A stretch of 64,000 bases of DNA from Terriglobia bacterium (lineage in GTDB: Bacteria; Acidobacteriota; Terriglobia; Bryobacterales; Bryobacteraceae). How positions within the stretch are numbered: position 1 is the stretch's first letter; each line of letters opens with the position of its first letter. Below are positions 3,838 through 64,000 of the stretch, in pieces. The stretch lies in contig JAIQFS010000025.1 in the NCBI GenBank assembly GCA_020073145.1, positions 1 to 64,000 on the forward strand, given 5' to 3'. Made by a program: the position numbers and the translations under genes. Below the pieces are notes generated by a model. The model saw only the letters and a list, made by a program, of their open reading frames with translations, was not told the origin of the DNA and made no database searches.

Positions 3838-3865
3838 GGGCAGGCGATGCGCCTGCCCGTTCCTT
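3838..3865 (+). terminator. Intrinsic terminator after cytochrome c
   Basis: Perfect 9-bp stem GGGCAGGCG / CGCCTGCCC (3838-3846 and 3850-3858) with a 3-base loop, followed by a T-rich tract. It separates the cytochrome gene from the next gene. Confidence 0.75.
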
Positions 3866-3908
3866 ATTTCCTTGAACTTTCGCCCGTCGTCTTTCGTACC
3901 CTAACTCC

Positions 3909-4781: not shown

Positions 4782-4844
4782 GAGGCCGCGCACCGGTCTG
4801 CCTACGACAGTTCCGCGATCGAAGGGTTCTGTCTCGCCAGGGTT

Positions 4845-5846: not shown

Positions 5847-5860
5847 GGAAGTTAACCAGT

Positions 5861-9722: not shown

Positions 9723-9751
9723 GGTTTCTTCATTGTAGCGGGTGGAGCCGC

Positions 9752-11370: not shown

Positions 11371-11446
11371 GAAGTAAACACATATAGTACAACACAGGCG
11401 CTCCGATGGTCGCACAACTGGAAGCGTAAAGAAGCGGCGGGGCTGG

Positions 11447-11797
11447 CTAGGCGAGCTCGGGTGTGGAAACTTCGAGACTCGAAGAATGCACGCGGAACTT
11501 GTGCGAGCTGATGCGAACAGCGGTCTCGCGGTTATCGCTCCAGACGACGAAACCGGTGGCCTGCAAATCGATGGGGCGGATGGCTTCTTGCTTGATGGGC
11601 CAGTCGATGCGGAGCTCCACATGGGAGCCAATGGGCATGGGCTGCCTGCTTTTGAAGGCGACTCCGTCCTTGCTCATGTCGCGCGTGATGCCGCTGCTCC
11701 AGCGGTGCTCGATGCCTTTTTCGGATTGCCGGTAACGAACCGAGAGGTGAACCTCAAACCGGAGGCTTCTCCGCCGTTCGTCCGCCGTTTTCGCCAT
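11447..11797 (-). CDS. PilZ domain protein (predicted c-di-GMP binding)
   Basis: Single-domain protein of about 116 aa. The N-terminal RRRSLRF supplies the arginine motif and TRDMSKDGVAF matches the DxSxxGxxF motif, the two elements that contact cyclic di-GMP in PilZ domains. Start chosen at the ATG at 11797 because GGGAGGAG lies 12-19 bases upstream and the domain begins there; an earlier in-frame start would add 27 residues of basic, unconserved sequence. Probably a stand-alone c-di-GMP adaptor. Divergent from cysS. Confidence 0.85.
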   Translation of the reverse strand: MAKTADERRRSLRFEVHLSVRYRQSEKGIEHRWSSGITRDMSKDGVAFKSRQPMPIGSHVELRIDWPIKQEAIRPIDLQATGFVVWSDNRETAVRISSHKFRVHSSSLEVSTPELA

Positions 11798-12027
11798 GTA
11801 GAAGTTTCTCCTCCCGCCCGTTTCGAGCTCATTCCGAAAAAAACGCGGACGCTGTGCCCGCCAGAGCTTGCAATTCAAAGGCCGTCATCACAAGTGCCGC
11901 GCGCGGTGTGCTCCGAGAGTACGAACCAGAACTTTTTACTCAGTGAGATCTTCACTCCATTACCATTCTGCCCGAGCCGAACGCAGGGCAAGCGTCGTCT
12001 GCTACGATGGAAAAAATCCCCTCAACT

Positions 12028-14609: not shown

Positions 14610-14630
14610 CCGGCGGTGGAGCCGGAGACT

Positions 14631-16484
14631 TTATTCCGGTTCGGCGTCGTAAATGGAAAGGACGCGCGGGGAGCCGCGGTAGAGCTCGTCCACCACGCCG
14701 GCGCGGTTGTCGAGCACGGCGCGCTGGCTGATGGAGCCCTTATCGGTTAACTCATGCGCGTCAATGGAAGGCGGCACATCGAGAACAATCGCGCGGACGA
14801 TGCGATTGGAGCTGCCGGTGGCGGTTTGGGCCATGCTGACGAGCAGTTCCTTGAATTTTGCGCGGACCCGCGGGCGCGCCAACAATTCCGGCACGCTGCC
14901 GGGCTCGGGCGACAGTTCGCGGCAGGAATCGATGTCGGGAAAGATGAGAGCGCCGACGTCGTCGCGATCGACGCCGGCAATCACGACTTCCTTGGCGTAG
15001 GGCGCGAAATGGGCCAGGAAGTCGACGCGCATTGGTCCCACGCTCACCCACGTCGCGGTGGACAGCTTGAAGTCCTCAGCAATCCGGCCGTCGAAGAGGA
15101 ATCCCTTGCTGGGGTCGGACTCGTCCACGAATCGCAGCGCGTCGTGTAATTTGTAATACCCTTCTTCGTCGAATGCGGCGCGCGTCTTTTCGGGCTCATT
15201 CCAATAGCCCGGCGTGACATTGGGCCCCCGAACGCGAGCTTCGAGTTTGTGCTCCGAGGGAACCAGCTTCAATTCCATGCCCGGAGCCGGCACGCCGCAT
15301 TCGCCGGCGCGGCGGACGTCTTTGCCCACCCAGAGGGCAAACGGCCCGGTTTCGGTGGAGCCCAGACCGGAGAGCATCAGGATGCGTTCGCCGCAGGCTT
15401 GGATGGACAGGTCCTGGAGCGCGTCCCAAACCTCCTGCGAGATTCCCGCCCCGGCGTAGAACAACGCTTTTAACCGGCTGAAGTAATGCCGGCGGAACTC
15501 CGGGTCTTTGCGCAGATAGGGAATGACCGCTTCGTACCCTTTGGGCACGTTGAGCACAATGGTGGGAGCAATCTCGCGCAGATTGCGGAGGGTCTCGTCA
15601 AACGCGCCGGGCACCGGCTTGCCTTCGTCCAGATACAGAGTGCCGCCGTTATAGAGGATCATGCCAAAATCTTTGCTGCCGGCGAAGGTGTGATTCCACG
15701 GCAGCCATTCCAGGATGACGGGCGGCTCATCCTCCAGGAACTGCCAGCACTGGCGGACCATCTCCTGATTGCTGGTCCACACGCGGTGCGTGTAAATGAC
15801 GCCCTTGGGGACTCCGACGGAGCCGGAGGTGAAGAGAATTTTGAAGACGGTATCGGGTCCGACGCGCGCGTGCGCTTCGTCGATGGCGGGGCCGGCGGGG
15901 GTATTTCGCAAATCGGAGAACAGGGTGGCGCCGGGGAGGGGATCGGACGCGCAGACCAGTTCCGCATCGGCGGGCATGACGGCCTGGATCGCGTTGGCAT
16001 AGCGCGCGCCGTTGGAGGCGAACACGAGCCCGGGATTCAGGAGCTGGAAGATGTGTTTCAGCTTTCCGAAGTCTTTGGAGACCAGCGAATAGGCGGTGGA
16101 GATGGGCGAGTAGGGCACGCCTGCGTACATGGCGCCGAAGCCCAGCAGCGCATGGTCCAGATCATTGCCGGACAAGATGGCAATCGGGCGCTCCGGCGAC
16201 AAGCGGCGCTGGACGAGGGCCTGCCCGACTTGCCGGCCCCCGGCGGCCGCCTGGGCATACGTCAGGCGCTGCCAGGGACCTTGCGGAGTGCGCTGCGCAA
16301 GGAACGTGCGGTCCGGCGCTTGCTGTGCCCAATGGTCCAGCCGGTCGGTCATGCGGCGTGGATACGGCCCGAGCTGGAGCTTCGAGCGGACATAGATGGT
16401 GCCGTCGGGTTTCCGGTCCATGATGACGTCGGTGGACGCCAGGCGGATTTCTCGAACCGGTGTGCTGGGGGGAGTTGTGGGCAT
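14631..16484 (-). CDS. Feruloyl-CoA synthase-like acyl-CoA ligase
   Basis: ANL-superfamily adenylating enzyme, 617 aa, that would activate an aryl or acyl carboxylate to its CoA thioester. AMP-binding motif [19 protein letters not shown], then [27 protein letters not shown] and, later, [11 protein letters not shown] and [21 protein letters not shown]. The combination of the last motif with [10 protein letters not shown] is typical of feruloyl-CoA synthases. The C-terminal Lys position typical of the family is hard to place ([14 protein letters not shown] holds the likely one). No other aromatic-degradation gene is nearby, so the substrate is inferred. Divergent from the PadR gene, whose relatives often respond to phenolic acids. 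Confidence 0.82.
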
Positions 16485-16555
16485 GCGGCTGCGGGGAAGT
16501 TGCTCCTCCTGGATATTATAGGCGGTCGGGAGGCACTACAACTCCGGAAACCCGC

Positions 16556-16599
16556 TTGACAAGGCTCCCGAGCCGGCATTAATATGTCGTTATGCGACA
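16556..16599 (+). promoter_or_regulatory. Promoter and palindromic operator of the PadR gene
   Basis: TTGACA (16556-16561) and TAATAT (16580-16585) are 18 bases apart, close to the sigma-70 consensus. The ATG at 16592 starts only six bases after the -10 box, so transcript and reading frame may begin together. A perfect palindrome TGTCG-TTATG-CGACA (16585-16599) spans the -10 end and the start codon, placed where a bound repressor would block RNA polymerase. It resembles the ATGT...ACAT sites of PadR proteins, so autoregulation is likely. Confidence 0.75.
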
Positions 16600-16936
16600 G
16601 GTCGTGACACAACCTGACGGACGGCCGCTGAGCGAGCCGGTTCTGTTGATCCTGATGAGCCTGGCCGGCCAGCCGCGGCACGGATACGCTCTGCTGAAGG
16701 ACATTGAATCGATCAGCCAAGGGCGGGTGCGGTTGAGCACGGGCACGCTATACGGGGCCCTGGCCCGGTTGCTCGAGGACGGCTGGATCGAGCGCTTCGA
16801 GCAAGAGGACACGTCCCGGGAAAAACAGGCGTACCGTCTGACTGCGGCGGGGCGGCGGCAACTGCAGATGGAGTTGGACCGGATGAAGCAATTGACGCGG
16901 GCGGGGATGGCGCGCTTGCGGGTTCGGGAGGCATGA
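16592..16936 (+). CDS. PadR family transcriptional regulator
   Basis: DNA-binding protein of 114 aa. Winged-helix core: VLLILMSLAGQPRHGYALLKDIE, followed by LSTGTLYGALARLLEDGWIE and the wing REKQAYRLTAAGRRQL; the C-terminal helix is short (PadR-s1 type). A palindrome overlaps its own promoter and start. Its stop overlaps the start of the next gene (ATGA), so the two are co-expressed; in Acidobacteria such PadR genes commonly pair with membrane-protein genes. Confidence 0.92.
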   Translation: MRQVVTQPDGRPLSEPVLLILMSLAGQPRHGYALLKDIESISQGRVRLSTGTLYGALARLLEDGWIERFEQEDTSREKQAYRLTAAGRRQLQMELDRMKQLTRAGMARLRVREA

Positions 16937-50491: not shown

Positions 50492-50714
50492 ATGGGCACC
50501 AGAATATCACAGGGCATCCCAGGAGTGAGCCAAAATCCAAATCCGGGGATTTTCGAGAAGCCGGAGACATTCGCACATGAGGCGGCAATGCGGCTGGCCT
50601 GAGCCATAATTCAATTCCAGCGATCCGCGTCAGAGTTGGAGCGAGGGCCCTCCTACGCACGGGATTCTCGTGGGGCGCGGGGTGCTACGCTGTTCGTTCG
50701 CAGGCAGGTGGACG

Positions 50715-51968
50715 GTGGACTTTGTTCGGGGGCTCCGATGTGTGTTCTGCGGTAGTCACTACCGGTCGAGGGCGCTGTGTACTTGCCCGCGGTGCGGGAT
50801 CTCCGGCATCCTCGACGTCCTCTACGACTATCCCTCGGTGGCGCGCAGTCTGACGCGCCGGGTGCTGGCGGGGCGCCGGGAACCCGGGCAATGGAGATAC
50901 CGCGAGCTGTTGCCGATCGGGGCGGGCGCGAAACTGCCGCAACTGGCGGTAGGCGGGACGCCGTTAACCCTGGCGCCGGCGTTAGCGCGGCATGTCGGTG
51001 TCGGGCGGCTGCTTCTGAAAGACGACGGGCGCAACGCCACCGGGTCGCTCAAGGATCGCGCCAGCGCGCTCGGAGTGGTGAAGGCGCGCGAGCGGCGGCA
51101 GAAGATCATCGCCTGCGCCAGCACCGGGAACGCGGCATCTTCGTGCGCGGGCATGGCGGCGTCGATGGGGCTGCGGAGCGTGATCTTCGTGCCGGAGCGC
51201 GCTCCGGAGCCAAAGGTCACGCAACTGCTGATCTTCGGCGCGACGGTGATCCGGGTCGGCGGGAGTTACGAGCAGGCCTTCCAACTGTGCCAGCAGGCCT
51301 GCGAGCGGTGGGGCTGGTACAACCGCAACTGCGCGATCAATCCATACCTGGTGGAAGGGAAGAAGACGGTGGGGCTGGAGATCGGCGAGCAGATGGAGTG
51401 GGAGCCAGCCGACTGGGTAGCGGTGTCGGTGGGCGACGGCTGCACGGTGGCGGGTGTCTGGAAAGCCTTCCGCGAGCTGCGGCAGTTGGGATTGATCGCC
51501 AGGACTCCGCGGATTTTGGGCGTACAAGCGGCCGGCGCCGCGCCGGTAACCGCGGCATTCCAGAGCGGTGAAGCCGTGCGGCCGCTGGAGCCGCGAACCG
51601 TGGCGGACAGCATTGCCGTGGGGGTTCCGCGCAACTGGAAAAAAGCTGTGCTGGCGGTGCGAGAGTCGGGCGGCACGATGATCAACGTCAGCGATGACGA
51701 GATTCTGGAGGCCATGCGCTACACCGGGCGGCTGGCTGGGATTTTTGCCGAGCCGGCGGCGGCCACCGCGGTGGCCGGCTTACGGCGGGCGGTGGCCGAG
51801 GGCGTCATGCGGCGCCGCGCCAGCGCGGTGGCAGTGATCACGGGCAACGGGTTGAAGGATATCCAATCCGCGCGGACGGCGGCCGGCCAACCCTTCGAGA
51901 TCGCGCCGGACGGAGCCGGACTGGACGACATCGTATGCCGGCAGGAACTGATCCCGCGTCCCTCCTGA
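50715..51968 (+). CDS. Threonine synthase-like PLP enzyme
   Basis: 417 aa, fold-type II PLP enzyme. N-terminal zinc-ribbon (C9/C12 and C22/C24/C27), then GGTPLTLAPALARHVGV, the Schiff-base motif RNATGSLKDRASA, and ASTGNAASSCAGMAA phosphate-binding loop, NGLKDIQSA at the end. The family makes threonine from phosphohomoserine. Here it stands beside 8-oxoguanine deaminase and the purine cluster; in E. coli the analogous place is held by YgeX (2,3-diaminopropionate ammonia-lyase, also fold type II). A role there is only inferred. Start is the GTG at 50715. It overlaps the next gene by 34 bases. Confidence 0.82.
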   Translation: MDFVRGLRCVFCGSHYRSRALCTCPRCGISGILDVLYDYPSVARSLTRRVLAGRREPGQWRYRELLPIGAGAKLPQLAVGGTPLTLAPALARHVGVGRLLLKDDGRNATGSLKDRASALGVVKARERRQKIIACASTGNAASSCAGMAASMGLRSVIFVPERAPEPKVTQLLIFGATVIRVGGSYEQAFQLCQQACERWGWYNRNCAINPYLVEGKKTVGLEIGEQMEWEPADWVAVSVGDGCTVAGVWKAFRELRQLGLIARTPRILGVQAAGAAPVTAAFQSGEAVRPLEPRTVADSIAVGVPRNWKKAVLAVRESGGTMINVSDDEILEAMRYTGRLAGIFAEPAAATAVAGLRRAVAEGVMRRRASAVAVITGNGLKDIQSARTAAGQPFEIAPDGAGLDDIVCRQELIPRPS

Positions 51969-53416
51969 TTCGCGACATCCACACGCTGGTTGTGATGGAT
52001 GAGCAGAACACGGTGCTGCACGGCGCCTGGGTATTCGTCCAGAATGGCGTCCTTCAGCAGATTGGCGCGCACTCCGCGAAATCGCCCAAGGCCGGGCGCA
52101 CGATCGATGGCCGGCACGCGGTGGTGATCCCGGGGCTGATCAATACGCACCATCACTTGTACCAGACGCTCACCCGGGCCTATGCTCCGGCGGCGGATGC
52201 GGAATTGTTCGATTGGCTGCGTACTCTGTATCCGATCTGGGCGCGGCTGGATGAAGAGGCCGTTTACGCCGCGGCGCTGGCCGGGATGGCGGAACTGCTG
52301 CTGTCGGGATGTACCACCACCAGCGACCATCATTACGTGTTCCCCAGGGGCCAGAGCCGCCTCATCGACGCGGAGATCCGCGCGGCGCGGCGAATTGGCA
52401 TCCGTTTCCATCCCACGCGCGGGAGCATGAGCATGGGCCGGAGCCGGGGTGGTTTGCCGCCGGATTCGGTGGTGGAGAGCGAAGACAGGATTCTCGAAGA
52501 TTGCGAGCGCGTGATCGCGAAGTATCACGATGCATCGCCGGGGTCGATGCTGCGCGTGGGGCTGGCGCCGTGCTCTCCGTTTTCGGTCTCCCGCCGGCTG
52601 TTGCGCGAGAGCGCGGAACTGGCGAGCCGCTGCGGCGTGAGGCTGCACACGCACCTGGCGGAGACCCGGGACGAGGAACTGTTCTGTCTGCGCCGGTACG
52701 GGAGGCGGCCGCTCGAACTGCTGGCGGGCGCGGGCTGGCTGCATGCGAACACGTGGCTGGCCCACGGGATTTATTTCGATGCACGGGAAATTCCCCGCCT
52801 GGGCCGGGCCGGCGTCGGCATCGCGCACTGCCCGACGTCGAATATGCGATTGGGTTCGGGCTCGGCTCCGGTGCCGGCGTTGCGGCGGGCGGGATGTCCG
52901 GTGGGGCTCGGAGTCGATGGCAGCGCCTCCAATGACAGCTCGCACCTGCTGGCCGAGGCGCGCCAAGCGATCTTACTGCAGCGGCTGGCGCGTGGCGCAT
53001 CGGCCCTGCGGGTGCGCGATGCGCTGCGCATGGCGACGGTGGAAGGGGCCCGCTGTTTGGGACGCGACGATATTGGCACATTGGAGGCGGGCAAACGTGC
53101 CGACCTGGCGATGTTCGATCTGCGCGACGTGGGCTATAGCGGGGCTGGCGACGCGGTTTCCGCGCTGCTGCTGTGCGCGCCGACGCGCGTGGCGGCGCTG
53201 ATCGTAGAGGGCCGCGTGGTGGTGGAGGGCGGGGAATTGCGGACCCTGTCGCTGGACCGGATCGTCGCCCGGCACGGGCGTGCGTCGCGCAGAATCCTCA
53301 GTCCTGGCTCAGCCTCTATCGTTTTTGCCCCTTGTACGCCAGTCCGAACCTCATCAGAGGGCGAATCCGCTGCCGTCCCCAAAGTTCCACCAGGACCATT
53401 TCGACGGCAAGGCTAG
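51935..53416 (+). CDS. 8-oxoguanine deaminase-like amidohydrolase with extended C-terminus
   Basis: Metal-dependent TRZ/ATZ-type amidohydrolase, 493 aa. Metal His pair in NTHHHLYQTLTRAY (H72-H74), followed by CTTTSDHHYVFPRG, VRLHTHLAET, LAHGIYFDAREIP, AHCPTSNMRLGSG and GVDGSASND, the pattern of 8-oxoguanine deaminase and hydroxydechloroatrazine hydrolases. The reaction would produce urate from 8-oxoguanine. The normal C-terminus ends near RRILS (about residue 455); the last 38 residues are unlike the family and run through what should be intergenic DNA. Starts 34 bases inside the threonine-synthase-like gene. Confidence 0.85.
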   Translation: MPAGTDPASLLIRDIHTLVVMDEQNTVLHGAWVFVQNGVLQQIGAHSAKSPKAGRTIDGRHAVVIPGLINTHHHLYQTLTRAYAPAADAELFDWLRTLYPIWARLDEEAVYAAALAGMAELLLSGCTTTSDHHYVFPRGQSRLIDAEIRAARRIGIRFHPTRGSMSMGRSRGGLPPDSVVESEDRILEDCERVIAKYHDASPGSMLRVGLAPCSPFSVSRRLLRESAELASRCGVRLHTHLAETRDEELFCLRRYGRRPLELLAGAGWLHANTWLAHGIYFDAREIPRLGRAGVGIAHCPTSNMRLGSGSAPVPALRRAGCPVGLGVDGSASNDSSHLLAEARQAILLQRLARGASALRVRDALRMATVEGARCLGRDDIGTLEAGKRADLAMFDLRDVGYSGAGDAVSALLLCAPTRVAALIVEGRVVVEGGELRTLSLDRIVARHGRASRRILSPGSASIVFAPCTPVRTSSEGESAAVPKVPPGPFRRQG

Positions 53417-53421
53417 GCCGG

Positions 53422-54396
53422 TCAATTGTCGGTCGGCACTCTTTCCGCATGGTCCACTACGATCACGTCAAGTTGTGCCTTCGTCTGTTCCAGCCTCAAA
53501 CCAAGTTGCTTATCGATCGCCACGGACAACCGCGCGGCACTCGGCTCTAGATCATATCGCAGCGTAAAATCGTATCTCCCTGTCAGTCCCGTATGGTCTT
53601 GGACACGGTTGGAGCGCAGCGACGCTGCCAACTCTCTAGTCAACTCCGAAAGCCGCGCCGCCCTAGCCGTCACGTAAGTTCCGTCGGGTGTTCTTCGCGT
53701 TGCGAAGGTCCTGCCGGGGGGAAGTTGCGGGAACCCGTTTCCGTCCACCCCGACTTGAACGTCGCCACCCGCGTTCCTTCTACCAGGCGTCGGCTTATCG
53801 AAGGGGGCTACCGACTCCTTCATCTTCGGCCCGTCCTTGGCCACCGCCAGTTCGTAGACAGAAAAATCCCTCAGTTCATGGTGGACGGCCATTTGGAAGC
53901 GTTCCAGCAGCAACTGTCTGAGCATTAGCCGGACGTCCTGCTTGGTTACACTCTCCGGAAGCCCGGCAGTGATCTCGTACCTTTCCGACTCCATCCAATT
54001 GGGACCGAAAACCTGATCGAACCCAACTCCGTATGCAGACACAAGGAGTTGCTTTAACGACAGGTTGGAATAAATCACCCTGCTTGGGTCGGTGGTGCCC
54101 GGCCCGCCGTTTATTGTTCCCACCGGAAACACCATACTCGACCCCACCCCAAAGCTAACTGAGGGTGTGTCCTGGCGTGCCACCGCACGTCTGACCACGG
54201 CTACCTCGAACTGTGGCACTACATTGGCCTCTATTTCAGCCGGACTCGGCACGGCCTGCTCTGGTTGCCGCGGGCTGCGCCCAATCAGTCCCAGCGTACC
54301 CTCATCCTGGGCAACCGACGCGACAACCACCAAGGAACAGATTATCGGTACAAAGAACCCGCCTCTCAATAGCATCCAGCACCGGTTGTGAGACAT
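53422..54396 (-). CDS. TIGR03435 family protein, divergent copy
   Basis: 324 aa from the ATG at 54396; an in-frame ATG at 54435 adds 13 residues. Signal peptide about 1-32 (VVVASVAQDE). Family motifs: FEVAVVRRAVARQDTPS, FGPNWMESERYEITAGLP, ERFQMAVHHELRDFSVYEL, VQDHTGLTGRYDFTLRYDL and final VIVVDHAERVPTDN. Function unknown. It sits on the opposite strand inside the purine cluster, between the deaminase and the hydroxylase operon, so it probably arrived by insertion or rearrangement. Confidence 0.85.
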   Translation of the reverse strand: MSHNRCWMLLRGGFFVPIICSLVVVASVAQDEGTLGLIGRSPRQPEQAVPSPAEIEANVVPQFEVAVVRRAVARQDTPSVSFGVGSSMVFPVGTINGGPGTTDPSRVIYSNLSLKQLLVSAYGVGFDQVFGPNWMESERYEITAGLPESVTKQDVRLMLRQLLLERFQMAVHHELRDFSVYELAVAKDGPKMKESVAPFDKPTPGRRNAGGDVQVGVDGNGFPQLPPGRTFATRRTPDGTYVTARAARLSELTRELAASLRSNRVQDHTGLTGRYDFTLRYDLEPSAARLSVAIDKQLGLRLEQTKAQLDVIVVDHAERVPTDN

Positions 54397-54525
54397 AGCA
54401 AGCGATCGAGGAAGCAGGTCGAACTTAGCCCTCACTTGACTAAATCTGTTTGTACGATTGAGTGTGGCTACATCTTGCCATTATCCGTCATCCTAAACGG
54501 GAGGGCCTTTTTGCGTCCTGAGGCG

Positions 54526-54832
54526 TCATCCCACGCGCATCGAGAATAGTTTTTCGCCCGAAAGTCTCCACGCTGCGATGAACATGACGAGACAGGCTGG
54601 CAGGTAGACAATCTGTTCTCCAAAAACCAGCGGGTTGATCGAGTATGCGGCGAGAAAAGATCGCACTGACGGTAGCGGCCCGTGTCCTGCGCCTCCAAAC
54701 GAGCGGGAGCGCAGCGATGAGGACGGGAAGGATGACGAAGGTGTACCAGCCCAGAGCGGGATTCGGAGAGCCCCTCCACAACCAGCCCGATCCGCCAAGC
54801 GTCAGTGCGAATGCGATCCAAGCCCAAACCAT
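54526..54832 (-). pseudogene. Small membrane protein split by a frameshift
   Basis: The minus strand reads a membrane-protein start, VWAWIAFALTLGGSGWLWRG then LGWYTFVILPVLIAALPLVWRRR, that breaks near 54655. The sequence continues one frame over with LAAYSINPLVFGEQIVYLPA and CLVMFIAAWRLSGEKLF. Joined, it makes about 100 aa with three or four membrane helices. The break lies at a TTTT run (AAAA at 54655-54658 on the plus strand), so it may be a sequencing error or a genuine disabling mutation. No function is assigned. Confidence 0.6.
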
Positions 54833-55021
54833 CAGTTATAGGTTCTCACGATCTACCCGCTTGGTGTCCAGAGGCAGATGCACGCGTTGGCACCTCCGCT
54901 GAGCGGCGACCCGAGGAATTGTGTCGACGGTTGCCAAATGGCGTTTGATGCGGGTGAGCGCCCCTGCTTGCAAAGGACCCGCGAGTCATCGCACGGAAAC
55001 GCGTGCCTCATCGGCTACCGG

Positions 55022-55050
55022 TTGTTTAAGATCTGGAAGCCTGATATATT
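55022..55050 (+). promoter_or_regulatory. Promoter of the purine-degradation operon
   Basis: TTGTTT (55022-55027) and TATATT (55045-55050) are separated by 17 bases. The start codon at 55076 allows a leader of about 20 bases with AGAGG (55061-55065) as a possible ribosome site. All following genes overlap, so this may drive the complete operon. Confidence 0.6.
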
Positions 55051-55075
55051 TTGGTCAGCCAGAGGTGGGCAGCTT

Positions 55076-55945
55076 ATGTTCGACAGGGTGGAGGCCTTCT
55101 ACCGGCCCGAAAGCGTTCCCGAAGTACTCCGGTTGTTGCAGCGAAGCAAAGGACAGGCACGCATGGTGGCCGGCGGCACGGACCTGGTGGTGGAGGGAGA
55201 TCGTTCCGTCCGCTTCCTGATCGATCTCACGCGAGCCGGATTGACGTACATCCGGAGCCGCGATACCACCTGCGTGATCGGCGCCACCACCACGCTGGCG
55301 GACCTGGAAGAATCCACGGCGATTCATGCCCTGGCCGGAGGACTGCTCTCGCGGGCCGCGGCGGCCTGCGGGTCCGTGCAAAACCGGAACCTGGCAACCC
55401 TGGGCGGCAACCTGGCGCATGGTTCGCCGGCCGCCGACATGGCGACTCCGCTGCTGGCGCTGGACGCCAGCGTGGTGGTCGCGGATGGGGAAGGGCGGCA
55501 CAAGATGCCGCTGGCCGAGTACTTCGGGCGGGCTTGGCAGAATGGCGCTTCCCACGCGCTGCTGATCGAGGTGAGGGTGCCGATGCCGCCGCAGAACGGG
55601 CGCTGCGGCTGGTCGTTCCAGAAATTCGGACGCACGGAGGTGGATCTTTCCCTGGTCAACGCGGCAGCGGGCCTGCAGTTGGACGCGCGCGGCCGGGTCA
55701 AGTGGGCGCGCCTGGCGCTGGGCGCCGTGGCCGCGGCCCCTTTCCGCGCGCTTCCGGTGGAAAGCCTCATGGCGGGCCGCGAGTTCGATCACAGCCTGCT
55801 GGCTGAAGCCGGTGAGGAAGTCATGCGCGAAGTTCAGCCGATTGCCGATCTGCGGGCCTCGGAAGAATTTCGCCGGGAACTGAGCCGGGTGGTGGCGGGA
55901 CGGGCGCTGGAGGAATGCGCGGCGCGGGCGGGGTGCTCTCTATGA
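55076..55945 (+). CDS. Xanthine dehydrogenase family FAD-binding subunit (YgfM/XdhB-like)
   Basis: 289 aa. FAD-binding segments RMVAGGTDLVVEGDRS and LATLGGNLAHGSPAADMATPLLALDA. It transfers electrons from the iron-sulfur subunit to NAD or another acceptor. ATG at 55076 gives the family N-terminus (DRVEAFYRPESVPEVLRLL). Its stop overlaps the next gene's start. First gene of the overlapping operon. In E. coli the counterpart in the yge/ygf cluster is YgfM. Confidence 0.92.
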   Translation: MFDRVEAFYRPESVPEVLRLLQRSKGQARMVAGGTDLVVEGDRSVRFLIDLTRAGLTYIRSRDTTCVIGATTTLADLEESTAIHALAGGLLSRAAAACGSVQNRNLATLGGNLAHGSPAADMATPLLALDASVVVADGEGRHKMPLAEYFGRAWQNGASHALLIEVRVPMPPQNGRCGWSFQKFGRTEVDLSLVNAAAGLQLDARGRVKWARLALGAVAAAPFRALPVESLMAGREFDHSLLAEAGEEVMREVQPIADLRASEEFRRELSRVVAGRALEECAARAGCSL

Positions 55946-56430
55946 AAACCATGTCCCTGTGCGTCACCGTGAACGGCGAATCGAAACAATGGACCATTGC
56001 GCCCGGCGACTTGCTGCTCGACGTGCTGCGCCGCGAAGGGTACTTCGGGGTCAAACGCGGCTGTGAGAAAGGGGAATGCGGAGCCTGCACGGTCCTGGTA
56101 CATGGGAAGCCGGTGAACTCGTGCCTGATCTTTGCCGCGCAGGTGGAAGGGGGCGAGATTCTCACCATCGAAGGGCTGGCGCAGGGCGATACGCTCGATC
56201 CGCTGCAGGAAGCATTTCTGGATCATGGCGCGGTGCAATGCGGATTCTGCACTCCGGGGATGATTCTGGCCGCCAAGGCGCTGCTCGACCGGCAGCCGCA
56301 TCCGACCGAAGAGCAGGTGCGGGAAGCGTTAGCCGGGAATTACTGCCGTTGCACCGGCTACCGGAAGCCGGTGGAGGCAGTCCTGGCGGCGGCCGCGCGG
56401 CGGAAAGTGCCGACGGAGGTGGCGCGATGA
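55942..56430 (+). CDS. Xanthine dehydrogenase family 2Fe-2S subunit
   Basis: 162 aa. Cluster ligands C41, C46, C49, C61 (GCEKGECGACTVL and SCLIFAA) and C100, C103, C135, C137 (QCGFCTPGMIL and NYCRCTGY). Cytoplasmic, no signal peptide. Start ATG at 55942 overlaps the preceding stop (ATGA), and its stop overlaps the next start the same way. Middle subunit of the three-part enzyme; corresponds to XdhC-type proteins. Confidence 0.95.
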   Translation: MKTMSLCVTVNGESKQWTIAPGDLLLDVLRREGYFGVKRGCEKGECGACTVLVHGKPVNSCLIFAAQVEGGEILTIEGLAQGDTLDPLQEAFLDHGAVQCGFCTPGMILAAKALLDRQPHPTEEQVREALAGNYCRCTGYRKPVEAVLAAAARRKVPTEVAR

Positions 56431-58769
56431 ATACCACGGTGGTGGGCAAGAATCTTCGGAAAGTGGACGGCTTCAAGCTGGTGACAGGCGGGGCCGCGTT
56501 CACCGATGACGTGCTGCTTCCCGGAATGCTCTACGGCAAGATTCTGCCCAGTCCGTACGCGCACGCGCGCATCAAGCGGATCGATACCAGCAAAGCCAAG
56601 GCGCTGCCGGGAGTGCACGCCGTGCTTACTTATAAGGATGTGCCGCGCGTGCCCCACACCACAGCGGGACAGGCCTGGCCGGAGCCCTCGCCCTACGACA
56701 CCTACCTGCTGGATTCGAAGGTGCGGTTTGTGGGCGACCGGGTGGCGGCAGTGGCGGCGGAGAGCCGGGCCCTGGCCGAACAGGCCTTGCGATTGATCGA
56801 TGTGGACTATGAGGTTCTCCCAGCGGTGCTCGATATGGAGGCGGCCATGGACGCGGGGGCTCCCGTGATTCATGACGAGCCGGACTCGACGAAGATCTTC
56901 GACCGCGAACACAACATCGCGGCTCACATTCGGCGCGAGATCGGAAATGTCGACGATGGGTTCCGCGAAGCCGATTTCATCTTCGAGCGGGAGTACCGGA
57001 CGCAGCGCCAGCAACATTGCATGCTGGAGCCGCACGTGACGATTTGCTGGCTGGACGGAGATGGACGGCTGATGATCCGAACCAGCACACAGGTTCCTTA
57101 CCATTGCCGCCGGCAAGTGGCGATGATCCTGCAGATCCCGGTCAGCCGCGTGCGCGTGATCAAGCCGCGCATCGGCGGCGGGTTTGGCGGTAAGCAGGAA
57201 ATGCTGCTCGAGGACATCTGCAGCGCCCTGGCGCTGGCCACACGGAGGCCGGTGAAAATCGAGTACACGCGCGAGGAAGAGTTTTACATGGCGCGGAGCC
57301 GCCATCCCCAGATCCTGCGCATGAAGATGGGGGTGAAGCGCGATGGCACGGTGGTGGCCAGCCATCTGCAAGTGCTCGCGACCACCGGCGCGTACGGCAG
57401 CCATGCCAGCACCGTGCAGGGCAACACGGGGAGCAAGGTGCTGCCGCTGTATCGCGCTCCGCACCTGCGCTTCGAATGCGATGTGGTCTACACCAATACG
57501 CCGGTGGCGGGGGCATTTCGCGGCTATGGTTGCCCGCAAGGATTCTTCGCGCAGGAAAGCCTGGCCGATGAAATCGCGTACAAACTGGGGATGGATCCCG
57601 TGGAGTTCCACCGGAAGAACGCAATCCGGCTGGGCGACGTCGACAAGCTGTCGGCCCAACTGGGGGAAGGCAAGGAGGGCTTGCCGCGCGTGATCCGCAG
57701 TTGCGGGCTGCCGGAGTGCGTCAAGCGGGGCGCAGCGGCCATCGATTGGGACCGGAAGCGCCAGTCGCTGCCAGCGCGCGCGGGCTTTGTGAAGCACGGG
57801 GTGGGAATGTCGTGCACCATGCAGGGCAGCGGCATTGCGGGGATCGACTGGGCAGCCTCTTTCCTCAAGATGAACGAGGACGGCTCATTCTTTTTGCAAG
57901 TGGGCGCTTCGGATGTGGGGGCGGGCGCCGACACGGTGCTGGCGCAGATCGCGGCCGAAACCCTGGGAGTGAGTCTGGGCAAGATCATCGTGACGTCGGG
58001 AGACACGGATTTTACGCCCTTCGATACGGGCGCGTATGCCTCCAGCACCACCATCATCTCGGGCGGCGCTGTGAAGAAGGCGGCGGAGAAAGTGCGGGCC
58101 CAGGTGTTGGGCGTGGCGGCGAAGATGCTTGCCGTTCCCGTCGAAAACCTGGCGTGCGCGAAGGACGAAGTCTTCACGACCACGAAGCCCCGGAAGTCGG
58201 TGAGCATGGCGGAGGTGGCGCTGCAAGCTCTGTATCAGGAAAAACTGCAGATCATGGACGGCGCGTCGCACTATAACACCGACAGCCCGCCGCCGTTCTG
58301 CGCGACCTTTGCAGAGGTGGCGGTGGATACGCAGACCGGGCGCGTGCGGGTGGTGCACCTGGCGACCGCGGTGGACCCCGGGGTGGCGATCAATCCCATG
58401 CAGGCGGAAGGGCAAGTGGAGGGGGCGGTGACGCAAGGCCTTGGGTTTGCCCTGAGCGAGGAGTTGATGCTCAACCACACCGGCTGGCCGATGAATCCGA
58501 ATTTTCTGGATTACAAGATTTTCTCGGCCAAGGACATGCCGAAGCTGACTACGATTCTGGTGGAGACGGAGGAGCCGTTGGGGCCTTACGGCGCCAAGTC
58601 GGTGTCGGAAGTCCCCATCAACGGGGTGGCGCCGGCGATTGCCAACGCCATCTTCCATGCCGTGGGCGTGCGGATCCGGAAGCTGCCGATCCGGCCCGAA
58701 GACATGCTGCGCGCCCTATACGAGCAGCAGCCGGAACTCAAACCGGAGGAGGCACTGGTCACTCAATGA
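56427..58769 (+). CDS. Xanthine dehydrogenase family molybdopterin-binding subunit (XdhA/XdhD-like)
   Basis: 780 aa. Contains GGFKLVTG-type start, YTREEEFYMARSRHPQ, the GGGFGGKQEMLLED moco loop, VAGAFRGYGCPQG and the catalytic-Glu segment GPYGAKSVSEVPINGV. No Tat signal, so a cytoplasmic enzyme. A purine substrate is inferred from the context, not from the sequence: relatives also act on nicotinate, pyrimidines and aldehydes. Related E. coli enzymes are XdhA and the selenium-associated XdhD. Stop overlaps the M20 gene (ATGA). Confidence 0.92.
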   Translation: MNTTVVGKNLRKVDGFKLVTGGAAFTDDVLLPGMLYGKILPSPYAHARIKRIDTSKAKALPGVHAVLTYKDVPRVPHTTAGQAWPEPSPYDTYLLDSKVRFVGDRVAAVAAESRALAEQALRLIDVDYEVLPAVLDMEAAMDAGAPVIHDEPDSTKIFDREHNIAAHIRREIGNVDDGFREADFIFEREYRTQRQQHCMLEPHVTICWLDGDGRLMIRTSTQVPYHCRRQVAMILQIPVSRVRVIKPRIGGGFGGKQEMLLEDICSALALATRRPVKIEYTREEEFYMARSRHPQILRMKMGVKRDGTVVASHLQVLATTGAYGSHASTVQGNTGSKVLPLYRAPHLRFECDVVYTNTPVAGAFRGYGCPQGFFAQESLADEIAYKLGMDPVEFHRKNAIRLGDVDKLSAQLGEGKEGLPRVIRSCGLPECVKRGAAAIDWDRKRQSLPARAGFVKHGVGMSCTMQGSGIAGIDWAASFLKMNEDGSFFLQVGASDVGAGADTVLAQIAAETLGVSLGKIIVTSGDTDFTPFDTGAYASSTTIISGGAVKKAAEKVRAQVLGVAAKMLAVPVENLACAKDEVFTTTKPRKSVSMAEVALQALYQEKLQIMDGASHYNTDSPPPFCATFAEVAVDTQTGRVRVVHLATAVDPGVAINPMQAEGQVEGAVTQGLGFALSEELMLNHTGWPMNPNFLDYKIFSAKDMPKLTTILVETEEPLGPYGAKSVSEVPINGVAPAIANAIFHAVGVRIRKLPIRPEDMLRALYEQQPELKPEEALVTQ

Positions 58770-59995
58770 GCGCACTCGCAACCGATGTTTTGAATGCCGA
58801 GCGCCTGGCCACACGCGCGCAGGCGTATGAAGGCGATATGGTCCGCTTCCTGCGCGACCTGATTGCGATTCCGGCGGAGAGCGCCCAGGAAGGGCCGGTG
58901 ATCGCGCGCATCCGGGAGGAAATGGAGAGGGTGGGTTTCGACGAGGTGCGCGTCGATGGCATGGGCAATCTTCTGGGCCGGATCGGCTCCGGGAAGACCA
59001 TCGTCATGATGGACTCGCACACTGACACCGTGGGCGTGGGCGACCCCAAAGAGTGGGCCTGGGACCCCTATCGCGGCAAGGTGGAAGACGGCTACATCTA
59101 CGGGCGCGGAGCGTGCGACCAGCGAGCCGGGATGGCCTGCATGGTGTACGCGGGCAAGCTGATCAAAGAGCTGGGCCTGGGCGGCGACTACACGTTGTAC
59201 GTGGTGGGCTCGGTGCAGGAAGAAGACTGCGACGGCCTGCCGTGGCTCTACATCTTGAAGGAAGACGGCATCCGGCCCGATTGCGTAGTGATCACCGAAC
59301 CCTCAAGCCTGCGCATTTATCGCGGCCACCGCGGGCGGATGGAGATTGAGGTGCACTTGCGGGGCGTCTCCTGTCACGCCAGCGCACCGGAGCGCGGCGA
59401 CAATCCGATCTACAAGATGAGCCGGCTGGTGGCCGAGGTAGAGCGTCTCAACACTCGACTGCGGAGCGATCCGCTCCTGGGGAAGGGAAGCATCGCGGTG
59501 ACGGAGATCCGGTCTTTATCGCCTTCGCTGTGCGCGGTGCCGGGCGCGTGCTCGATCCATCTGGATCGCCGCCTGACGGCGGGCGAAACCAAGGAGAGCG
59601 CGCTGGCCGAAGTGAAATCGCTGCCGGGCGCGGAGCAGGCTGAAATCGAGATTCTGAGCTACGACCGGCCCAGCTATACCGGGTTGCGTTACCCGATGGA
59701 GAAGTATTACCCGACCTGGGTGATCGAGGAATCGCATCCGGTGACGCGGGCCGCGATCGAAGCCTATCGGGCCTTGTGGGACCGCGAGCCGGTGGTGGAC
59801 AAGTGGACGTTTAGCACCAACGGGGTGGGGTCGATGGGGCTGATGGGCGTGCCCACCATCGGCTTCGGGCCGGGCGACGAAGAGGTGGCTCACAGCGTGA
59901 CCGAGCGCGTGCCGATCCGCCATCTGGTGGAAGCGGCTCAGTTCTATGCGGTATTTCCGTTGACGTTCGCGGCTCTGCGAAAAGCCAATGGCTGA
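58766..59995 (+). CDS. YgeY-type M20 family hydrolase
   Basis: Zinc amidohydrolase of 409 aa. Metal ligands: His/Asp in MDSHTDTVGVGDP, the catalytic Glu pair in GSVQEEDCDG, VITEPSSLRIYRGHRGRMEI and late VAHSVTERVPIRHLVEA. The closest group is the YgeY selenium-metabolism hydrolase (family TIGR03526), part of the purine cluster of E. coli. It probably removes a carbamoyl or acyl group from a ring-opened intermediate. Starts inside the previous stop; its end overlaps the ygfK start by eight bases. Confidence 0.9.
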   Translation: MSALATDVLNAERLATRAQAYEGDMVRFLRDLIAIPAESAQEGPVIARIREEMERVGFDEVRVDGMGNLLGRIGSGKTIVMMDSHTDTVGVGDPKEWAWDPYRGKVEDGYIYGRGACDQRAGMACMVYAGKLIKELGLGGDYTLYVVGSVQEEDCDGLPWLYILKEDGIRPDCVVITEPSSLRIYRGHRGRMEIEVHLRGVSCHASAPERGDNPIYKMSRLVAEVERLNTRLRSDPLLGKGSIAVTEIRSLSPSLCAVPGACSIHLDRRLTAGETKESALAEVKSLPGAEQAEIEILSYDRPSYTGLRYPMEKYYPTWVIEESHPVTRAAIEAYRALWDREPVVDKWTFSTNGVGSMGLMGVPTIGFGPGDEEVAHSVTERVPIRHLVEAAQFYAVFPLTFAALRKANG

Positions 59996-61919
59996 ATTGG
60001 TTCCCATTCCGCTCCCGCACCTGTGGCGGCGCGCCGTTCTGGAGTATGAGCGGGAAGGGAAGATCTTCGACCTGCCGAAAGACAAATTCTTTCGCGGCAT
60101 TGCGGGGCTCGACTTGTCGGTTTCGTTCCATGGACGCCGAGCGGCCACTCCGCTCGGTCCGGCGGCCGGCCCGCACGGCCAACTGGCGCAGAACATCGTA
60201 CTTTCCTGGCTGGGCGGCTCGCGCATCATCGAGCTGAAAACCGTCCAGATATTGGATGACCTGGCGATTTCGAGGCCGTGCATCGACGCCGCCAATGTCG
60301 GCTACAACGTGGAATGGTCGCAGGAGCTCTCGCACGAGCAGTCGCTGCGGGAGTATGTCAGCGCCGCCATGCTGCTCGAGATGCTGCAAGCGTCGAAGCT
60401 GCTGGGCGGGGAAATTCCCGACGCCACGATTTTCGACATGAGCGTGGGATACAACCTGAAGGGCATTCAGTCGAAGAAGGTGCGGCGGTGGATGGAATCC
60501 ATGCGGAACGCCCGGACCGTCATCGACGAACTGCGCACCGGCCTGCCCGCACCTTATCGAGACCTGCCCTTTCCGGACCGCATTAGCGACACCGTCAGTT
60601 TGTCGACGTTCCACGGCTGTCCGGCCGCGGAAATCGAAGACATTGTCACCTTTTTGCTGCGCGAGATGGGCTGCCACGTGTGCATCAAGCTCAACCCGAC
60701 GCTGCTCGGCCAGGCCGAAATCGAGCGCCTGTTGCACGAAGTCCTCGGGTATCGTGAGATTCAACTTCATCCTCCCGCCTTTGAAAACGACTTGCAGTTC
60801 GACGAAGCCGTGGACCTGATTCCGAGGCTGCAGAGCGTGGCGCGCGCCTGCGGCCGGGGTCTGTCGGTGAAATTCAGCAACACTTTGGTGGTGAAAAATC
60901 ATAAGGGCATCTTCCGCGATGAGGTCATGTACATGTCTGGCGCGCCGCTGCACCCCATCGCGCTGAGCCTGGCCCACGAGTTCCGGAAGCGGGTAGAGAC
61001 GCCGGCATCATTTTCAGGCGGCCTGGATGCGCACAACGTGGCATCGGTGGTGGCCTTGGGCTTCGTGCCCGTGACTACGTGCACCGACCTGTTGCGGCCG
61101 GGCGGATACGGCCGGTTGATCCACTACCTGGAGAACCTGGGGGCGGAGATGCAGGCCGCGGGAGTTTCCACCATCGCCGACTTTGTGCGACATCAGATGG
61201 GCCGCAAGGATGCGATTGTAGCGGAGGCCGTCAAGAACCCGCGTTATGGTTGGGAACGCAACCGCGGCGTTCCGCGCAAGGTGGGGACGAAGCTTTGGCT
61301 GTACGACTGCATCAACTGCGACAAGTGCGTGCCGGTCTGTCCGAATGATGCCAACTTCGCGTATGAATCGGCGCCGCGGACCATCGAGTACGATAATTTC
61401 GAGCTGCAGCCGGGCGTCATTCGCCGCCTGCCAGGCGGCGTGCTCCGGATCCTGAAGCCGAAACAGTTGGCCAATTACGCCGATGCCTGCAACGATTGCG
61501 GCAATTGCGATGTCTTCTGCCCCGAGGACGGCGGGCCCAACGAAGAAAAACCCCGCTTCTTCGGTTCGCCGGAGACTTACCGCAAACAAGCCGGTGAGAA
61601 TGGCTTTTACATCGACTGGAAGGCACACGCGATCTACGGCACGTTTAGCGGAAAGGCGTACGTCTTGACTCTCGATCCCGAGCGCGACCGGGCGCGGTTC
61701 GACACCGAAACGGCGGAGGTGGAAATCCGCCTGAGCGGCCACCAGGCGCTGGGCTGGAAGCCCAAGCCCGGCGCGCGCCCGACGGAAATCATCGACATGC
61801 TGCCCTACTTCAAGCTCAAACTCTTGTTGGAATCCATGGCGGATCCGCGGCACGTACACTTTGCCAATGTCGCAGGTCTGGAGGAGGAGGTTGTCCATGC
61901 CCACGACGTCGGCGATTGA
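59988..61919 (+). CDS. YgfK-like iron-sulfur oxidoreductase lacking the NAD(P)H module
   Basis: 643 aa. N-terminal 420 residues follow the DHOD-like half of E. coli YgfK: ATPLGPAAGPHGQLAQNIV, SWLGGSRIIELKTVQIL, MSVGYNLKGIQ, LSTFHGCPAAEIEDI, VCIKLNPTLLG, YMSGAPLHP and TDLLRPGGYGRLI. The ferredoxin part follows directly: YDCINCDKCVPVCPNDANF (C441, C444, C447, C451) and CNDCGNCDVFCPED (C501, C504, C507, C511). The GltD-like FAD/NAD(P) module of about 400 residues in E. coli YgfK is missing with no frameshift remnant. The start lies in the preceding gene; the end overlaps ygeW. Confidence 0.88.
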   Translation: MAELVPIPLPHLWRRAVLEYEREGKIFDLPKDKFFRGIAGLDLSVSFHGRRAATPLGPAAGPHGQLAQNIVLSWLGGSRIIELKTVQILDDLAISRPCIDAANVGYNVEWSQELSHEQSLREYVSAAMLLEMLQASKLLGGEIPDATIFDMSVGYNLKGIQSKKVRRWMESMRNARTVIDELRTGLPAPYRDLPFPDRISDTVSLSTFHGCPAAEIEDIVTFLLREMGCHVCIKLNPTLLGQAEIERLLHEVLGYREIQLHPPAFENDLQFDEAVDLIPRLQSVARACGRGLSVKFSNTLVVKNHKGIFRDEVMYMSGAPLHPIALSLAHEFRKRVETPASFSGGLDAHNVASVVALGFVPVTTCTDLLRPGGYGRLIHYLENLGAEMQAAGVSTIADFVRHQMGRKDAIVAEAVKNPRYGWERNRGVPRKVGTKLWLYDCINCDKCVPVCPNDANFAYESAPRTIEYDNFELQPGVIRRLPGGVLRILKPKQLANYADACNDCGNCDVFCPEDGGPNEEKPRFFGSPETYRKQAGENGFYIDWKAHAIYGTFSGKAYVLTLDPERDRARFDTETAEVEIRLSGHQALGWKPKPGARPTEIIDMLPYFKLKLLLESMADPRHVHFANVAGLEEEVVHAHDVGD

Positions 61920-62940
61920 ACTCAAGAAAGCGCTGTTCCGCGGTCGGGACTGGATTACCACCCAGGAATGGACCGATGCCGAGATTGAGGTGCTGCTGGA
62001 CGTCTCCGCGGACTTGAAACGGAAATTCAGGGGGCGCATCCCGCACCGTTATCTTCCCGACGAGACGCTCTTTCTGATGTTCTTCGACAAGTCCACGCGC
62101 ACGCGCAACTCATTTGAAGCCGGTATGACGCAACTCGGCGGCCACGCCCACTTTCTGACCGCCGATGCCATGCAGGTTTCGCACGGCGAAAGCCCCAAGG
62201 ACACCGGGATCATTCTGTCGAGTTACGGGCACGGCATTGCCATCCGCCACGACCTGATTCCCGGGGAAGGGAACGCGTACATGCGGGAGGTCGCGCAGTG
62301 GGCCAGCGTGCCGGTGATCAACATGCAGTGCGACGTGGATCACCCCTGCCAGACCCTGGCCGACCTCATGACCATCCGCGAGATGCGCGGGCGGAATCTG
62401 CGCGGCCTCAAGGTTGCGGTGAGCTGGGCGTATGCGCCGAGCTATGCCAAGCCGCTCTCGGTGCCGCAGGGTCTGATCATGCTGCTGCCGCGATTCGGCA
62501 TGGACGTGATGCTGGCGCATCCGCCGGAGTACCGGCTGATGCCCGAGACGCTGAGTGCGGCGCACGAAAACGCGCGGCGGGGCGGCGGCAGTTTCCGCGA
62601 GGTTCCGGGCATGGACGAAGCCTTCCTCCATGCCGATGTGGTTGTGCCCAAAAGCTGGGGTTGTCTGGAAAGCATGGGCAGCAACCCGGCCGAGTCGCTG
62701 CGGATCGCCAAGCAATACACGGACTGGATTTGTGACACGGATCTGATGAAGCTGGCGCGGCCCGATGTTCTGTACATGCATCCGCTGCCGGCCGACCGCG
62801 GCAACGAGGTCACGGACGAAGTGATCGATGGCGCGAATTCCGTGGTCTACGCCGAAGCGGAGAACCGTCTGCACACGGCCAAGGCGATCCTGGCGCTCAC
62901 GATGGCGGATGCCGCGGTCGAGTACGAGGCCCATGCCTGA
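61897..62940 (+). CDS. YgeW-type carbamoyltransferase
   Basis: 347 aa of the aspartate/ornithine carbamoyltransferase superfamily, YgeW group. Carbamoyl-phosphate site FDKSTRTRNSFEAGMTQLGG (S66-R70), HPCQTLADLM and the C-terminal HPLPADRGNEV. Typical knotted fold. In E. coli YgeW acts in urate breakdown and gives carbamoyl phosphate from a ureido compound for carbamate kinase, which follows here. The ATG at 61897 has GGAGGAGGAGG upstream inside ygfK; an earlier in-frame ATG lacks the family N-terminus. Its stop overlaps the next gene. Confidence 0.93.
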   Translation: MPTTSAIELKKALFRGRDWITTQEWTDAEIEVLLDVSADLKRKFRGRIPHRYLPDETLFLMFFDKSTRTRNSFEAGMTQLGGHAHFLTADAMQVSHGESPKDTGIILSSYGHGIAIRHDLIPGEGNAYMREVAQWASVPVINMQCDVDHPCQTLADLMTIREMRGRNLRGLKVAVSWAYAPSYAKPLSVPQGLIMLLPRFGMDVMLAHPPEYRLMPETLSAAHENARRGGGSFREVPGMDEAFLHADVVVPKSWGCLESMGSNPAESLRIAKQYTDWICDTDLMKLARPDVLYMHPLPADRGNEVTDEVIDGANSVVYAEAENRLHTAKAILALTMADAAVEYEAHA

Positions 62941-63877
62941 GACGCTGGTGGTCGCGCTCGGCGGCAACGCGATCACGCGGCCCGGCGAGCCGGGCACCAT
63001 CCCGCAGCAGTTTGCCCATACCGCCGAAACCCTGGAACATCTCACGCCGCTGTTCCGCGGCGACGCCCGCATCGTGATCACGCACGGCAACGGCCCGCAG
63101 ATTGGCAATATTCTGATTCGCGTGGAAGAGGGGGAGCGGCGTGTGCCGAGACTTCCGCTGGACACCTGCGTCTCCGACTCGCAGGGTGGCATGGGGTACA
63201 TGATTCAGCGCGTGGCGCTGGAGCTGTTCCGGCGCGAGCACATCGATCGCAGCGTGGCCACGATCATCACGCAAGTGCTGGTGAACGAGGGCGACCCCGG
63301 CATGGTCCATGCCACCAAGCCGATCGGCCCGTTTTACAGCGCCGCCGAGATGGAGCAGATTCGCCGCGAGAGGCCGCACTGGGAGGTCCAGGAAATCGAC
63401 CAGGGCCGGTGGCGCCGCGTGGTGGCCTCGCCGCGACCGATCCGCATCCTGGAAGAAGACGCGATTGCCAGGCTGCTCGATGCCGGCGTCGTGGTGGTCG
63501 CCTGTGGCGGCGGAGGAATTCCAGTGGCGTGGGAAGGCGACCGGCTGGTGGGCGTGGAAGGAGTGATCGATAAGGACTTCGCGTCCAGCCTGCTGGCGCG
63601 CCACCTGCGCGCGCAGAGGCTGATGATTGTGACGTCGGTGGAGCGGGTGGCGGTGCGGTTTGGCAAACCCGATCAGCAATGGCTCAACACCATCACCGTT
63701 GGAGAGGCACGTCTGTATCTGGCCGCCGGCGAGTTCCCACCCGGCTCGATGGGGCCGAAGATCGAAGCGGGCATCGAATTCGTCGACCAAGGCGGCCGGG
63801 AGTGCATCATCACCTCCGCCGAACAGGCCGCGCAGGCTCTGTGCGGCAGAGCCGGCACGCACCTGGTGGGGTCATGA
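62933..63877 (+). CDS. Carbamate kinase
   Basis: 314 aa. VVALGGNAITRPGEPGTIPQQFAH, VITHGNGPQIGN, LPLDTCVSDSQGGMGYMIQ and VVACGGGGIPVAWEGD then GVIDKDFASSLLA are standard. It transfers the phosphate of carbamoyl phosphate to ADP, giving ATP, CO2 and ammonia: the energy-conserving step of such pathways. Start ATG at 62933 overlaps ygeW by eight bases; stop overlaps the SsnA start (ATGA). Corresponds to E. coli YqeA/ArcC in the same cluster. Confidence 0.94.
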   Translation: MPETLVVALGGNAITRPGEPGTIPQQFAHTAETLEHLTPLFRGDARIVITHGNGPQIGNILIRVEEGERRVPRLPLDTCVSDSQGGMGYMIQRVALELFRREHIDRSVATIITQVLVNEGDPGMVHATKPIGPFYSAAEMEQIRRERPHWEVQEIDQGRWRRVVASPRPIRILEEDAIARLLDAGVVVVACGGGGIPVAWEGDRLVGVEGVIDKDFASSLLARHLRAQRLMIVTSVERVAVRFGKPDQQWLNTITVGEARLYLAAGEFPPGSMGPKIEAGIEFVDQGGRECIITSAEQAAQALCGRAGTHLVGS

Positions 63878-64000
63878 TTCTGACCAACGCCCGCGTGCTG
63901 ACCTTCGACTCCGCAAATCGCATGCTGGACTCCGGCAGCGTGGAAATCCGCGCGGACGGCAGCATCGGATTCGTGAAGTCCGGCCGTGTGCGCGGCAAGG
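63874..64000 (+). CDS. SsnA-like amidohydrolase (start only, runs off window)
   Basis: ATG at 63874 inside the carbamate kinase stop. The first 42 residues, MILTNARVLTFDSANRML followed by GSVEIRADGSIGFV, have the opening of SsnA and other amidohydrolase composite domains. The remainder lies outside the window, so the catalytic His motif is not visible. SsnA in E. coli lies in the same cluster and is needed for urate-derived intermediate hydrolysis. Truncated by the window edge, not by mutation. Confidence 0.7.
   Translation, partial: MILTNARVLTFDSANRMLDSGSVEIRADGSIGFVKSGRVRGK

Follow-up and report, generated by a model that had tools for sequence, protein, structure and literature searches.

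A predicted operon for reductive urate breakdown in a Terriglobia bacterium that also encodes the uricase pathway

Background

Can an acidobacterium break down urate by reduction, independently of oxygen? The question is raised by a gene cluster near the end of a 64,000-nt stretch of DNA from a Terriglobia bacterium (the window; G000:C2:1-64000, on a contig of 90.5 kb in a genome of 6.32 Mb in 88 contigs). The reductive urate pathway has hitherto been described for selected, mostly gut, anaerobes, and here its genes stand in a Bryobacterales-type acidobacterium, from a lineage known mostly from soil and peat, beside a full uricase pathway. The original prediction had read the cluster as an E. 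coli-like purine (urate) degradation operon, and this is well supported, with carbamate kinase lying downstream of YgeW, although "E. coli-like" understates the differences described below. Judging from family matches and gene order, it is likely that the cluster is a translationally coupled operon for oxygen-independent reductive urate breakdown. Rather than a new kind of system, it is a variant of one that was elucidated in 2025 in gut bacteria (PMC12507026), and our literature search found no description of this cluster in Acidobacteria.

Gene content and order

The cluster consists of a PALP1 gene and an 8-oxoguanine deaminase gene that overlap each other (50.67-53.42 kb), one unrelated minus-strand gene, and a run of nine genes (55076-66479) in the order XdhB-XdhC-XdhA-YgeY-YgfK-YgeW-carbamate kinase-SsnA-PALP2. 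All pathway genes are on the plus strand. Successive genes of the nine-gene run overlap by 4, 4, 4, 8, 23, 8, 4 and 4 nt, which bears out the overlaps predicted from 55.08 kb on, and the reading frames of the operon are all intact. Each of the purine cluster genes originally named matches its family far beyond chance. As the original prediction noted for the window, HyuA, YqeB and YqeC are absent, and this holds for the whole cluster. The joint occurrence of the XdhABC, YgeY, YgfK, YgeW, carbamate kinase and SsnA families in one overlapping operon speaks for urate as the starting compound, a reading that is well supported, not proven; the substrate in this organism, the electron donor, the identity of HyuA and the roles of PALP1 and PALP2 we infer.

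The molybdenum hydroxylase

The hydroxylase is encoded as three separate subunits, an XdhB/YgfM-type flavin adenine dinucleotide (FAD) subunit (55076..55945, ATG start; PF00941 and PF03450, XdhB 153 bits), an XdhC-type 2Fe-2S subunit (55942..56430; PF01799 and PF00111, 50% identical to E. coli XdhC) and an XdhD-type molybdenum subunit (56427..58769), the proposed reductase of urate to yanthine. In the published work, Glu606 is present in XdhD and absent in XdhA (PMC12507026). When the window protein was aligned with 31 other molybdenum subunits, its GEGK insertion aligned with Glu606 of E. coli XdhD, while the insertion was missing from E. coli XdhA and from the genome's own xanthine dehydrogenase on another contig, C10. 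Moreover, a tree built from 74 molybdenum subunits placed the window enzyme, together with its Terriglobia relatives, in a clade with E. coli XdhD (support 0.99) that leaves out E. coli XdhA. The Glu606-type insertion and the XdhD clade are the strongest evidence here, and they appear to favor urate reduction over xanthine oxidation.

Proposed pathway

In E. coli and C. difficile, urate is converted to yanthine (XdhD-YgfM), which YgfK or UacX dearomatises by reduction in a step coupled to the opening of the ring by SsnA; the later steps involve HyuA, YgeW or UacY, YgeY and YgeX, with pyruvate as the end product (PMC12507026). We propose that in the window the 8-oxoguanine deaminase family member (51935..53416; PRK08203 equivalog, 660.6 bits, cut-off 532), which would convert 8-oxoguanine to urate, can supply urate, and that XdhBCA would convert this to yanthine (2,8-dioxopurine). 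A short YgfK (59988..61919; TIGR03315, 410.5 bits), with a flavin mononucleotide (FMN) domain resembling those of dihydroorotate dehydrogenase (DHOD) and dihydropyrimidine dehydrogenase (DPD) and with two 4Fe-4S sites, would draw electrons from a separate donor to reduce the pyrimidine ring, and SsnA would then open the reduced ring. SsnA is present as predicted, except that its gene only begins in the window, spanning the window end (63874..65139, of which the window holds 63874..64000); the protein scores 438.6 bits with PRK07203 (cut-off 444) and is 37% identical to E. coli SsnA, and no non-SsnA family scores above 175 bits.

The imidazole-derived ring would be opened by a hydantoinase or dihydropyrimidinase encoded elsewhere. 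HyuA-family candidates are found on contigs C69 (45% identical to E. coli HyuA) and C10 (33%), and the C69 dihydropyrimidinase could open ureidomethyl-hydantoin; in two relatives, L066 and L107, a HyuA-family gene immediately follows PALP2. One ureido group would be phosphorolysed to carbamoyl phosphate by the YgeW-like knotted carbamoyltransferase (61897..62940; best PDB match 3q98, E=5e-65; 40% identical to E. coli YgeW), whose knot motif SWAYAPSYAKPLSVPQG aligns with TWAYSPSYGKPLSVPQG of 3q98, and carbamate kinase (62933..63877; PRK12352 333 bits, above the subfamily cut-off of 266; 40% identical to the E. coli protein) would then make ATP from the carbamoyl phosphate. The other ureido group would be hydrolysed by YgeY, an M20 hydrolase (58766..59995; TIGR03526 574.7 bits, cut-off 321.5; 55% identical to E. 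coli YgeY). The position of YgeX would be filled by PALP1, which together with PALP2 would finally yield pyruvate and ammonia from the diaminopropionate, or from a ureido-amino acid, that results.

The short YgfK and its electron donor

The window YgfK has 643 residues, compared to about 1030 for the full-length protein, and aligns to residues 7-464 and 905-999 of E. coli YgfK, with 37% identity over the first half. The FAD/NAD(P)H module (E. coli residues 458-904) is lost, and the FMN and 4Fe-4S modules are kept; the cysteines C441/444/447/451 and C501/504/507/511 are invariant in 29 sequences, as is much of the FMN domain. An AlphaFold2 model of the short YgfK (predicted local distance difference test score, pLDDT, 83.5) has DPD and dihydroorotate dehydrogenase B as its best PDB matches, and the predicted DPD-like fold is as would be expected for reductive dearomatisation. 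A PDB sequence search with the short YgfK gave no match.

For UacX of C. difficile, a ferredoxin donor was inferred by the authors from the lack of the same module (PMC12507026). By the same reasoning, since its own FAD/NAD(P)H module is missing, the short YgfK would take its electrons from an external donor, either ferredoxin or a separate NAD(P)H module. No gene that would supply such a module was seen beside the cluster in the stretches covered, which spanned about 10 kb on each side where the contig allowed, and supply in trans is possible because there are six GltD-like places elsewhere in the genome. The genome's best match to the lost module is the GltD part of a NuoF-GltD fusion (about 1050 aa) on contig C61, which stands beside a HoxU-like subunit (L173, locus 7334-11316) and is perhaps part of a hydrogenase or other NADH-linked complex.

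Acidobacteriota hold both long and short YgfK, the long forms making up one clade (support 1.0) in a tree whose sampling used a short-form query, so that the long and short frequencies are biased. The short form is also found in Planctomycetota, Myxococcota, Elusimicrobiota, KSB1, Calditrichota, SAR324, Neomarinimicrobiota and Alphaproteobacteria. The closest named relatives of the window protein, with 66-72% identity, are from Bryobacterales and Candidatus Solibacter metagenome-assembled genomes. In two genomes (G054 and G201; L050 and L056), the short YgfK is split across two reading frames, by a frameshift or an assembly error.

PALP1 and PALP2 in place of YgeX

The first gene of the cluster had been assigned to the YgeX position. 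PALP1 (50670..51968; PF00291 244 bits; PRK08197 285 bits, cut-off 303) is a threonine-synthase-like, fold-type II pyridoxal phosphate enzyme with its catalytic Lys in NATGSLKDR, and at 47.5 bits against the diaminopropionate ammonia-lyase model (cut-off 276) it is not YgeX. Nor is PALP2, with 23 bits against the same model. That PALP1 is the housekeeping threonine synthase is less likely, as another threonine synthase is encoded on contig C4 (255 bits, cut-off 167). PALP2 lies entirely beyond the window, as the last gene of the operon (65136-66479 in the same contig numbering). It is CysK/beta-cyanoalanine-synthase-like, with the likely catalytic Lys in SGSHK/TGAHK, and an AlphaFold2 model of a 73%-identical relative (pLDDT 90.8) has beta-cyanoalanine synthase and O-acetylserine sulfhydrylase as best PDB matches.

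With orthologues taken at >150 bits, where the scores show a gap from 170 to 122, PALP2 was found in 30 of 32 YgfK-bearing Acidobacteriota genomes and in 18 of the 265 others (n=297; Fisher p=2.5e-26, a guide only, since related genomes are not independent). Many phyla have YgfK/SsnA clusters in which PALP1 again lies next to PALP2. Among 54 PALP2-bearing stretches, 16 of them chosen because they hold PALP2, the partner was PALP1 in 33, a divergent PALP (family F22 or a weak PALP1 match) in 7 and a true YgeX in 2, with none in 12, several of which lie on cut contigs. The fact that PALP2's partner is PALP1, F22 or true YgeX fits PALP1 as the YgeX analogue. In addition, the two stretches with a true YgeX (L042 and L139) have PALP2 and lack PALP1, which suggests that PALP1 replaces YgeX and that PALP2 has an additional role. 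Our guesses for this role are that PALP2 acts on the other diaminopropionate enantiomer, or performs a beta-elimination or replacement on ureido-alanine. In many genomes (L147-L161), PALP2 also occurs with SsnA, YgeY, YgeW or a molybdenum hydroxylase, without a YgfK match; in these clusters another dearomatising reductase may replace YgfK.

Comparison with known systems

The cluster shares with the E. coli yge/ygf/ssnA/xdhD cluster (PMC12507026; L037) the XdhD-type molybdenum subunit with the Glu606 insertion, YgfK, SsnA, YgeW, carbamate kinase and YgeY. It differs in that YgfK is without residues 458-904, PALP1 and PALP2 occur with no YgeX, the 2Fe-2S subunit is separate, hyuA is outside the operon, an 8-oxoguanine deaminase is added, and the genes form one overlapping operon. 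With the uricolytic cluster of C. difficile (UacX/UacY, PMC12507026) it has in common a dearomatising reductase with an FMN domain and without the FAD/NAD(P)H module, so that both probably depend on an external donor, for instance ferredoxin. However, UacX is a PydA homologue (PF01180), whereas the reductase here is a truncated YgfK (TIGR03315) without a PF01180 match; UacY is replaced by YgeW and carbamate kinase, and an XdhB FAD subunit is present.

The same genome encodes two further pathways that invite comparison. Contig C69 carries a reductive pyrimidine operon (L144, locus 1834-7975) with PreT, PreA (684 bits, cut-off 335), dihydropyrimidinase (604, cut-off 393), an aminotransferase and an N-carbamoylputrescine-amidase-like gene. 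Reductive dearomatisation, opening of a cyclic amide and removal of a ureido group are common to both systems, but the pyrimidine pathway has its own operon and enzymes, and its substrates are uracil and thymine. Contig C10 carries a complete oxidative urate operon (L145, locus 5351-16680), comprising XdhAB (948 bits, cut-off 849.5), GuaD, 2-oxo-4-hydroxy-4-carboxy-5-ureidoimidazoline decarboxylase, uricase (PF01014), 5-hydroxyisourate hydrolase, allantoate amidohydrolase (508, cut-off 479) and allantoinase (532, cut-off 358); the decarboxylase and the hydroxyisourate hydrolase were assigned by reading the sequence. This pathway also consumes urate, but it requires oxygen and uses unrelated enzymes at a separate locus. 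That C10 is a contamination is unlikely, as uricase and YgfK also occur together in a congener, G423, and a permease read as acidobacterial-type lies on the contig.

Alternative explanations

Several findings weigh against reductive urate breakdown. With a complete uricase pathway, the genome has no need of another route for urate when oxygen is present. Following the sequence past 64000, as had been proposed, added PALP2, but neither hyuA, YgeX nor a transporter was found in the operon, the sequence past the window end included; a PF00860 permease lies elsewhere in the genome, on contig C64. The published pathway contains no equivalent of PALP2, and YgeW (229 bits, cut-off 500), YgfK and, only just, SsnA fall under their NCBIfam equivalog cut-offs. 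Finally, in clusters elsewhere with the same partners, the molybdenum subunit is a different one and lacks the Glu606 insertion. The complete oxidative operon, the missing HyuA and YgeX and the families under their cut-offs could also be explained if the operon degraded some other N-heterocycle (another oxopurine, a pyrimidine or a hydantoin-like compound) by means of enzymes paralogous to those for urate, and urate itself were left to the uricase operon. We consider this unlikely, given that six pathway-specific families occur together with the XdhD-type signature, that pyrimidines are served by the operon on C69, and that the product of the 8-oxoguanine deaminase is urate.

Another possibility is that the molybdenum enzyme is an oxidative xanthine dehydrogenase that makes urate, the remaining genes being an incomplete or decaying remnant. 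Its best NCBIfam match is in fact XdhA_XDHase (771 bits, cut-off 780), and the three-subunit layout resembles that of E. coli XdhABC. Nevertheless, the Glu606-type insertion and the XdhD clade argue against such an activity, as does the separate true xanthine dehydrogenase on C10, and a decaying remnant would hardly be expected to have intact, overlapping frames and invariant Fe-S cysteines, so that we regard this explanation as very improbable. Least credible of all is that YgfK is a selenate reductase, an idea that comes only from the NCBIfam name of TIGR03315 (putative selenate reductase subunit), since the E. coli protein has a demonstrated activity on yanthine together with SsnA (PMC12507026), the fold matches DPD and the neighbours are purine enzymes.

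With reductive urate breakdown as the preferred interpretation, it can tentatively be hypothesized, at somewhat less than even confidence, that the cluster represents a widespread environmental branch of the pathway, with a ferredoxin-dependent short YgfK, an unrecognised pyridoxal phosphate step by PALP2, the constant partner beside PALP1, F22 or YgeX as an exchangeable lyase for diaminopropionate, and uricase in the same cell allowing a switch between oxygen-dependent and oxygen-independent breakdown. If the urate reading holds, the reductive route may be in wide use for recycling purine nitrogen where soils and waters are anoxic, and the labels "selenate reductase", "threonine synthase" and "cysteine synthase" on many such environmental genes would be wrong. 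Of most interest are the source of electrons for the short YgfK, the part played by PALP2 and the two urate routes in one genome.

Distribution in other genomes

The same gene order is found in other Terriglobia/Bryobacterales genomes. Within the order, YgfK occurs in scattered genomes (8 of 150) and uricase in 27 of 150, including four of the eight YgfK genomes, the congener among them (p=0.035); across the phylum, YgfK and uricase occurred together in this genome alone out of 297. A mutual exclusion of the two across the phylum was not significant (1/32 vs 23/265, p=0.49). Related genes reach Planctomycetota, Myxococcota, KSB1, Calditrichota, SAR324 and Alphaproteobacteria. In 11 YgfK/SsnA clusters from several phyla (L042, L080, L081, L091, L096, L099, L100, L102, L112, L115 and L131), an allantoate/N-carbamoyl-amino-acid amidohydrolase (F10) is paired with a CN-hydrolase (F11), and YgeW is in none of them; from their families, these pairs look like a purely hydrolytic removal of two ureido groups, without carbamoyl phosphate.

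Neighbouring genes

The predicted gene run is real, except that it is interrupted by a minus-strand TIGR03435/DUF3738 gene (53422..54435; 198.6 bits, cut-off 40) outside the pathway, of a family that takes its name from Solibacter. This gene is absent from the relatives G121, G073 and L107, in which PALP1, the deaminase and the remaining genes run in the same order without interruption, and its insertion therefore probably split the cluster here. Directly after PALP2 follow an ArsR-type regulator and three small SRPBCC-like open reading frames (L005:6516-8224, corresponding to contig positions 66516-68224).

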